Assembly: GCA_003023745.1 (NCBI GenBank)
Contig: PXYV01000001.1
Coordinates: 1 to 64,000 of the forward strand
Origin: Sulfobacillus acidophilus
GTDB lineage: Bacteria; Bacillota; Sulfobacillia; Sulfobacillales; Sulfobacillaceae
DNA: 64,000 bases
Direction: 5' to 3'
Under the pieces are notes generated by a model. The model searched no databases and was not told the DNA's origin. It saw only the letters and a list, made by a program, of their open reading frames with translations. Made by a program: the position numbers and the translations under genes. Positions within the stretch are counted from its first letter, which is position 1; each line of letters begins with the position of its first letter. Shown here one piece after another: positions 30,952 to 33,341 of the stretch.

Positions 30952-31686
30952 ATGATTGTTCGTGGTCTGTTGGCAACGTTGGCAGCGGTCGTCGTGGGAG
31001 GGTCCGCTATTGCAACGCATGCCTCAGCCACAAAGACGACGGCGGATCCGGTGCAGGCACAGAAAGTCCGGATTGTGCGCCCCTTAATATTACCTGGCCC
31101 AGTGGTGAGTGACAGCACGAGTGCGCAGGCATTAGGCAACCAGGTAATGAAGTCGGTTGCCAAAGGGCACATGGTGGCGGGTGTTGTTTTGCGTCGATCA
31201 CCGACGGAACTTTGGGTCAGGACCGGCACGCCTTTGCACCCATCGACGGAGAGCTTTGCTTTGTCTTCGGGAACTGTGACATGGCAGGGCGGATGGACCT
31301 TTTTGGGCAGTCAAACTTTCCGCAACATGCCTGTCAACCTGGTGGTGCAACACCATACTGTCGTGGGCGTCTTGACTTATCGCAACGCCTATGGGCGGGT
31401 GGTGCGATTACGGGGGGATTGGGTGACCATTGCAGCAGTAAAGGGAGCCAAACATAGTAATCCAGCCTGTCGCCGTCCCGCGGGCCCACTAGTGGTTGCG
31501 AAAATTCTAAAGACCACGGTGTGGAATTCCCACAAGGGTTTGCTGCCTCGACGCAGCTTGGTGCAATTTACTGTCTACGGGGTGCCCGGCTATCCGGTTT
31601 TGTTGGGCGGCGTGGAAGATTATGGTCATGCCGTGTGCCCCGCTCCCAAACTGGCCATTGTGCGTTTGGTGCTGAAGTCCGGGTAA
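30952..31686 (+). CDS. Predicted secreted protein, unknown function
   Basis: A 244-residue protein with a clear signal peptide (hydrophobic about 5-21, then ATHASA as a likely signal-peptidase cleavage region). The mature part is rich in Val, Thr and Pro, with two Cys (in NPACRRP and HAVCPAP) that could form a disulfide. No family recognised. ATG follows CGGAGGAAGG. Its last 118 bases overlap, on the opposite strand, the end of the next gene (31568-32824). Confidence 0.6.
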   Translation: MIVRGLLATLAAVVVGGSAIATHASATKTTADPVQAQKVRIVRPLILPGPVVSDSTSAQALGNQVMKSVAKGHMVAGVVLRRSPTELWVRTGTPLHPSTESFALSSGTVTWQGGWTFLGSQTFRNMPVNLVVQHHTVVGVLTYRNAYGRVVRLRGDWVTIAAVKGAKHSNPACRRPAGPLVVAKILKTTVWNSHKGLLPRRSLVQFTVYGVPGYPVLLGGVEDYGHAVCPAPKLAIVRLVLKSG

Positions 31687-32824
31687 GTTGGGTAGGCGGG
31701 TAATGAACGTGCCAAAGGTAAAAGCGTGTATGGGTATTCCAGCCAAAATCCCAGGGGACATGATAGCGGTCATTGCTATGGGTGTTGGTCAAGGGTACCC
31801 CGTGTAGGTCGTAACCGATGACCACTGCGGTATGTTGGATGCGCCCGTATTGCTCGTAACTGATTAAGTCACCCGGTCGCAACGATTCAATGGCTCCGTC
31901 CGGCCATCGGTCCGCAGGGCGCGTGATGTCCGCGTAGGTGCCGCCGGCAAACTCCGTCGCGCGCCCGCTACTTCGCAAAAATTGTGCAAGCGATCCGGCG
32001 TTTGCCCAGGCGGCGCTACCCTCATGAGTGGCCTGATCGAAATACCAAACGCGTGTCATAGGAAACCCGCCGGCCAATAGAACCTGTGAAATCCAATTGG
32101 TGCAATCTCCTCCGTTGTCGTTGTAGTCCGGGTATTGGGGATTGTACAGGCCATCATTTCCGCACCCTGGAGCATTTCCGCAATACACGTTGGCGTATTC
32201 TAGGGCGAGTTTGCGGTTGGGAGAGAGTTGGTGAGGGTTAGGCGTCCCTCCATAGCGATTAGGCACTGCTTGGCCGGCCATGTTGCCTGGCGACACGGGA
32301 TTGACAAAGTCATCCGCGGCAAAGCGCCACTGCCGGTACTCGTACACAATTGTGAGATGATGACGCGAGGCGATGCCAAATGAAAGCGGTATGTGCGGCT
32401 GATTGATGTAGTGGTAATGATAGGCTTCCCGTTCAATCGCTCGCACGTAAATGCGTTGAGGGGTGACGTAACGGATTACTGGCGTTCGAACCATTACGCT
32501 CACGCCTGTCCAGCGGATGCGTCGCAAGGCTGCCCAATTTGTGAGATAGCGCGAGCGCACTTCAGCAGCCTGTAGGGCCTGTTGTGCGAGGGGGGTGGAT
32601 TGATATAGTGTCGACAAATGGCCGAGACGGCCATGCACCATGTCTGACATCTGGGTTTGAACTAGTTGTTGCACGGATTCTTGGGCAGTGCGCTGAGGAC
32701 TAGTCTGCCCTGGCGCTGCGATGTTAGTGACTGCGCCGAGCCATGTGAGCAAGGAGATTGGTAAGGTAACAAGCGTGAGTTTCATGTGGGTAGGATGATG
32801 TAGGTGGGTACGTTTCATACGCAT
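31568..32824 (-). CDS. Secreted protein with a putative amidase (Amidase_6) domain
   Basis: A 418-residue protein with an N-terminal signal-like segment (hydrophobic from about residue 15 to 36). The C-terminal half matches the putative amidase domain of Firmicute wall/spore proteins: YANVYCGN, then GGDCTNWISQ with the likely catalytic Cys, and later QHTAVVIGYD with a likely catalytic His. The middle region is a predicted beta-rich, Tyr- and His-rich domain of unknown role. A peptidoglycan or peptide amidase is plausible but untested. ATG 32824 abuts the + strand gene start; ATG 32785, at the start of the hydrophobic segment, is an alternative. Neither has a clear ribosome binding site. The C-terminal tail after about residue 380 is basic and lies over the neighbouring gene. 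Confidence 0.65.
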   Translation of the reverse strand: MRMKRTHLHHPTHMKLTLVTLPISLLTWLGAVTNIAAPGQTSPQRTAQESVQQLVQTQMSDMVHGRLGHLSTLYQSTPLAQQALQAAEVRSRYLTNWAALRRIRWTGVSVMVRTPVIRYVTPQRIYVRAIEREAYHYHYINQPHIPLSFGIASRHHLTIVYEYRQWRFAADDFVNPVSPGNMAGQAVPNRYGGTPNPHQLSPNRKLALEYANVYCGNAPGCGNDGLYNPQYPDYNDNGGDCTNWISQVLLAGGFPMTRVWYFDQATHEGSAAWANAGSLAQFLRSSGRATEFAGGTYADITRPADRWPDGAIESLRPGDLISYEQYGRIQHTAVVIGYDLHGVPLTNTHSNDRYHVPWDFGWNTHTRFYLWHVHYPPTQLTRTSAPNAQWPVWERGTRHDHNLPRRPTKPDSRAPRRQ

Positions 32825-33341
32825 GGTGATAATGATGCTTAAATGGCTGGCTTTGACGGATGAGCCATGGATGGTAGGAACGATGGAAACTCCGATTGGT
32901 CCGTTGTGGGCGATTCATAGCGATTCAGGGCTGGTTGCGGCAGAATTTGGTGAACAGTGCCCGACGCGATTTGATGGTCGCACGCTGTGTTCGACGGCGC
33001 TTGCGCCCTGGGTGCAGACATTGTTTGATCAGGCATTTATGCAAGGAATTCAAGGGACATGGTACGCGCTGGACCTGGGGCTAACCAAGTTGGAGCGAGC
33101 GCTCATATCGACGGCCACCCAAATTCCCTTCGGTCATACCTGCAGTTACGCAACGTTGGCCCATTGGGCAGGTTACCCGGGAAGAGCCCGAGCGGCTGGG
33201 CGGGCAATGAGCAAAGTGCAAATTGCGTACTTAGTACCCACGCACCGGGTTATTCGTTCCGATGGCACGGCGGCGCCGGGTCAACGCAGCTCTCTCGTGC
33301 GAGCGCTGCGTCAGTATGAACAGATTGTTATTAAGTGTTAG
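32823..33341 (+). CDS. MGMT/Ogt homologue lacking the acceptor cysteine
   Basis: A protein of the O6-alkylguanine-DNA alkyltransferase family, with both the N-terminal domain (METPIGPLWAI) and the DNA-binding/active-site domain (IPFGHTCSYATLAHW, then GRARAAGRAMS with the conserved Arg finger region). The hallmark PCHRV is PTHRV here: Thr140 (counted from 32823) replaces the alkyl-accepting Cys. Stoichiometric alkyl transfer is therefore not expected. Alkyltransferase-like proteins carry Trp or Ala at this site and recruit nucleotide excision repair; this could be a Thr variant with a similar lesion-sensing role. The last residue is Cys, but far from the site. Start uncertain: ATG 32823 has no ribosome binding site, while ATG 32871 has GGATGAG upstream. 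Confidence 0.75.
   Translation: MVIMMLKWLALTDEPWMVGTMETPIGPLWAIHSDSGLVAAEFGEQCPTRFDGRTLCSTALAPWVQTLFDQAFMQGIQGTWYALDLGLTKLERALISTATQIPFGHTCSYATLAHWAGYPGRARAAGRAMSKVQIAYLVPTHRVIRSDGTAAPGQRSSLVRALRQYEQIVIKC

Follow-up and report, generated by a model that had tools for sequence, protein, structure and literature searches.

The stretch of DNA analyzed here, 64,000 nucleotides from Sulfobacillus acidophilus (contig PXYV01000001.1, hereafter the window), encodes a member of a real, conserved, and unusual subfamily of O6-alkylguanine alkyltransferase (AGT) homologs in which threonine takes the place of the acceptor cysteine. This protein probably recognizes damaged DNA without itself repairing it in acid-loving mine bacteria. 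Sequence comparison, a structure model, and analogy with the alkyltransferase-like proteins (ATLs) together suggest, with a probability of roughly 57%, that the Thr paralog has lost alkyl transfer, behaves in an ATL-like manner, and passes the lesion to nucleotide excision repair. It is also somewhat better than an even bet that the clade represents a second, independently evolved ATL-like lesion sensor, with two domains and Thr for Cys, which is confined to one acidophilic Bacillota order and works beside a normal Ogt.

Gene structure and predicted fold

The gene lies in an open frame of 172 amino acids at positions 32823 to 33341 of the forward strand and encodes a two-domain AGT homolog. 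The frame proposed in an earlier sequence-only reading stands, but its start is probably different: in an alignment of the Thr-clade members, the orthologs begin at residue 4 or 5 of the window protein, so translation probably starts at the ATG at 32832 or 32835. The coding sequence is placed at 32835 to 33341 (forward strand) on the basis of the open frame, these ortholog starts, and matches to PF01035 (62.8 bits, 2.8e-17; cutoff, 27) and TIGR00589 (54 bits; cutoff, 46.4). A sigma-70-type promoter was looked for near the gene start and not found. The PF01035 match covers residues 92 to 153 of the C-terminal DNA-binding and former active-site domain (approximately residues 86 to 172; 33078 to 33338, forward strand), and the N-terminal ribonuclease-like domain (approximately residues 5 to 85; 32835 to 33077, forward strand) is weakly seen by Pfam (PF02870, 0.007).

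An AlphaFold model built from a 14-row alignment (pLDDT, 94.5; pTM, 0.88; pLDDT of 82 to 97 in the N-terminal domain) predicts with high confidence that the Thr protein has the complete two-domain AGT fold. The best solved matches of this model in Foldseek are to Mycobacterium tuberculosis OGT (E value, 1.6e-10; TM score, 0.68 to 0.72), which is also the best solved relative by phmmer. Since these alignments run near full length (156 to 162 columns), while the match to Schizosaccharomyces pombe Atl1 is confined to the C-terminal part of the model, the N-terminal domain has been kept, in agreement with the earlier description of a full-length MGMT/Ogt homolog.

Residues kept and changed in the Thr clade

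We aligned 14 Thr members with 41 Cys homologs from the order and class, 25 diverse homologs, and Escherichia coli YbaZ. The replacement of PCHRV by PTHRV (33237 to 33251, forward strand) first noticed in the sequence-only reading is confirmed, with Thr140 encoded by ACG at 33240 to 33242. All 14 members have Thr at the acceptor position, encoded by ACG, ACC, or ACT. Five residues are invariant in the clade: Tyr109 (33147 to 33149, forward strand), the equivalent of the base-flipping human Y114; Arg123 (33189 to 33191, forward strand), the arginine finger and equivalent of human R128; His141; Arg142; and Glu166 (33318 to 33320, forward strand), the equivalent of human E172. Judged from the alignment, these correspond to the base-flipping residues and triad partners. 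The earlier claim that the helix-turn-helix, the flipping Tyr, and the Arg region are retained is borne out by Y109 and R123, and His141 and Glu166 are present as well. The arginine finger and the helix-turn-helix residues that make up the DNA-binding face are invariant or nearly so.

The change from Cys to Thr was correctly recognized in the sequence-only reading, but it is accompanied by others that this reading missed, at the Asn hinge and in the active-site loop. The hinge residue (human N137; Val132 in the window protein, 33216 to 33218, forward strand) is Ser, Ala, or Val in the 14 Thr members and Asn in 40 of the 41 Cys homologs. Likewise, the G-[Y/F] of the G-[Y/F]-x-G-G loop occurs in 40/41 Cys homologs and gives way to other residues throughout the Thr clade, where the rewritten loop (residues 149 to 158; 33267 to 33296, forward strand) carries a conserved A-x-x-[Q/E] with an invariant Ala151 and Gln or Glu at position 154. 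The FQxxVW core is also altered, and Phe90 is replaced by Leu in 13 members and by Thr in one. These observations correct the automatic naming of the protein, which TIGR00589 labels a methyltransferase although it lacks the acceptor.

Distribution, phylogeny, and selection

A search of 40 relatives recovered a strong ortholog in each of the seven further genomes that belong to the window's genus (48 to 55% identity) and in six genomes of the sister family (35 to 41% identity). Eight of the 14 members thus fall in the genus, one of them the isolate Sulfobacillus harzensis, and the remaining six in the sister family. The named members other than S. harzensis are metagenome-assembled genomes. Against the whole order, a profile of the family scored these 14 members at 234 to 257 bits and everything else at 75 bits or less, and within the order (42 genomes) every genome of genera g1, g12, and g14 carries the gene, which is absent from the remaining genera. 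The search for homologs sharing the Thr thus ended in a single clade with Thr in 14/14.

Searches at greater distance also point to a restricted distribution. No PTHR-type motif was found outside the window's genome in 398 genomes across the phylum. Among 151 genomes of the class, P-x-HR with an x codon starting in A, C, or G occurs in this clade only, in a search that is blind to T-starting codons (Trp and Ser TCN) and that missed the two g14 members (helix R-L-V). Thr is therefore rejected as a frequent substitution at the acceptor position (0/397 other phylum genomes, with all class hits in this clade). When about 85,000 species were scanned with motif patterns of the family, a method that detects only proteins near the query motif, the same members came back, including S. 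harzensis DSM 109850, together with one unrelated PTHR protein (L112, described below).

The 14 Thr members form a single clade (support, 100/100). Its stem is 1.52 changes per column long, and the tree yields no sister group for it. E. coli YbaZ is placed apart from the Thr clade, a placement that is unsafe because its branch is very long. A phage origin of the Thr gene was rejected, as no relative was present in the viral contigs.

The Thr clade is under purifying selection, with dN/dS values (Nei-Gojobori) of 0.11 to 0.22 for the closer pairs and saturation in the more distant ones. Identities between the same genome pairs for the Thr protein and the small Cys Ogt were 75 versus 68%, 77 versus 70%, 71 versus 73%, and 53 versus 50%. 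The degree of conservation of the Thr protein is thus similar to that of the small normal Ogt and lower than that of the longer Cys copies in the sister family.

Genomic context

A normal PCHRV Ogt, for which the sequence-only reading had suggested looking, is encoded in the window's genome (G000:C2:29736-29978), and such a copy is present in every genome that carries the Thr gene. The idea that the Thr protein stands in for a missing Ogt is rejected on account of the copy on C2. A further weak PF01035 match, on G000:C23, is noise and resembles a chemotaxis receptor.

Across the clade, the neighbors of the Thr gene encode Amidase_6, VTT, M50 peptidase, AsnRS, SelR, and isochorismatase proteins, and synteny is conserved within the genus. 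The divergent Amidase_6 gene (PF12671; 31568 to 32824, reverse strand) is syntenic in the genus, with no evident functional link. There is no repair gene among the neighbors in the loci of the clade, and a repair operon around the Thr gene is rejected. A conserved 244-amino-acid protein, encoded at 30952 to 31686 of the forward strand by a frame that runs into the 3' end of the Amidase_6 gene, recurs in five loci of the genus and has no Pfam match. The neighborhood in two sister-family genomes (L043 and L044) differs from that of the window's genus; there the Thr gene directly follows a frame on its own strand that encodes a PF06475 (putative glycolipid-binding) domain (L044:7006-8001).

Comparison with AGTs, ATLs, and Cys mutants

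The Thr protein resembles AGT/MGMT/Ogt proteins such as M. tuberculosis OGT in its two-domain fold, helix-turn-helix, Tyr, arginine finger, P-x-HRV, and Glu, but it lacks the acceptor Cys, the Asn hinge, and the G-Y/F-x-G-G loop. ATLs are distinguished by having lost the Cys and the Asn hinge while keeping the Tyr and Arg (review by Tessmer and Margison, PMC10779285), a combination shared by the Thr protein and by E. coli YbaZ, S. pombe Atl1, and Thermus thermophilus TTHA1564. Hinge loss is common to both groups, and YbaZ has Leu at that position. However, an N-terminal domain is missing from ATLs, and most of them carry Trp at the Cys position (PMC10779285), as YbaZ does, whereas the Thr protein has the N-terminal domain and Thr. 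It also differs in the absence of the DNA-contacting C-terminal extension, since the window protein ends 6 residues past Glu166 (some Thr orthologs have longer C-terminal tails), in its new loop, which is not obviously ATL-like, and in its separate position in the tree, which is uncertain given the long branches. A non-acceptor residue at the Cys position is also found in the C145S and C145A mutants of human AGT, which bind DNA without transfer; in C145S, transfer was undetectable (PMC4150771). These are laboratory mutants of an otherwise intact AGT, whereas evolution has also changed the hinge and loop of the Thr clade.

Because the Thr protein lacks what AGT catalysis calls for and departs from ATLs in several defining features, we file it as neither. 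The proposal of a distinct type in the sequence-only reading is supported by this assignment, by the retained N-terminal domain, and by the single Thr clade. No Thr-type ATL was found in open-access papers, and an earlier description elsewhere is possible.

Proposed function and alternatives

With the Cys absent, the Thr protein contains no known acceptor, which strongly implies that its alkyl-transfer activity has been lost. Finding and holding O6-alkylated bases is its likeliest role because the flipping residues are kept, and by analogy with ATLs we infer that the lesion is bound and handed off to nucleotide excision repair. The protein would scan DNA through its retained helix-turn-helix; the Tyr and arginine finger would flip an O6-alkylated base into the pocket in which Thr replaces the acceptor Cys, and the base would be held there without repair. 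The bound lesion would then pass to nucleotide excision repair, for which the genome encodes UvrA (1405 bits) and UvrC (590 bits) in neighboring genes on a single contig, and the normal Ogt of the same genome would directly repair small adducts. In AGTs, the N-terminal domain supports cooperative binding (PMC10779285), and its counterpart in the Thr protein could do likewise.

An ATL-like function would be convergent, because the N-terminal domain and a tree position apart from YbaZ tie the protein to AGTs. If this is true, a repair enzyme has turned into a lesion sensor more than once, and the clade would show the changes that this required. That Cys loss can produce a lesion flagger is already known from the small Trp-type ATLs; the Thr clade helps to test which residues beyond the Cys matter, given that a Trp-to-Cys mutant of the E. 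coli ATL gained no transfer activity (PMC10779285).

A possible but distinctly less probable reading is that the protein still binds DNA and has left alkyl repair; it might then act in regulation, bind DNA in a structural capacity, or sense some other base modification. Changes that go beyond the Cys, taking in the Asn hinge, the FQxxVW core, and the active-site loop in its entirety, would fit such a role, as would the neighborhood without a repair gene and the canonical Ogt always present in carriers. However, the invariant Tyr, arginine finger, HR, and Glu are what base flipping needs, and DNA binding by the AGT helix-turn-helix is not sequence specific (PMC10779285). We consider it improbable that the ligand of the old pocket is a free alkylated nucleobase or nucleoside, or some other small molecule, and that the protein has no role in DNA repair: AGTs do take free O6-alkylguanine in the same pocket (PMC10779285), and the pocket loop is changed, but the near-invariant DNA-binding face argues against it.

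Slimmer still is the chance that the protein remains an alkyltransferase with another acceptor, either Thr140 itself or a Cys in the new loop. Seven of the 14 members have a Cys two residues past the invariant loop Ala, but in the other seven, the window protein among them, Gly, Ser, or Pro occupies this position, and the loop Cys is rejected as a new acceptor since it is unconserved. C107 of the window protein is also unconserved in the clade, and the undetectable transfer in human C145S AGT speaks against such a substitute. A decaying gene or a sequencing artifact, either of which the sequence-only reading had named as a possible refutation, has next to no probability and is rejected in view of the 14 genomes with Thr and open frames, the low dN/dS, and the synteny in the genus. 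Thr in every member through several different codons excludes chance or error, and no close ortholog has Cys.

Other unusual alkyltransferase homologs

The searches also brought up homologs outside the Thr clade. A second, unrelated PTHRV homolog, so far a single example, is encoded at L112:8001-8291 (JAAZPS010000189.1, Bacillota MAG AS4KglBPMA_3); it keeps the Asn hinge, has lost the G-Y/F-x-G-G loop, and sits on a very long branch. In two homologs from Desulfobacterales (L089:3304-3516 and L106:95-307), an in-frame stop codon, which in L089 is TGA, occupies the place of the acceptor Cys (P-stop-HRVV). The stop is probably selenocysteine, and this enzyme is named in papers on prokaryotic selenoproteins (e.g., PMC2398784); a SECIS element was supported neither by folding nor by Rfam. 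Finally, in a PCHRV homolog from Phycisphaerales (L066:4919-5275), Val stands in for the hinge Asn and the G-Y/F-x-G-G loop is missing. The tree puts this protein together with YbaZ, with long branches; it is possibly an ATL-type protein that still has its Cys.
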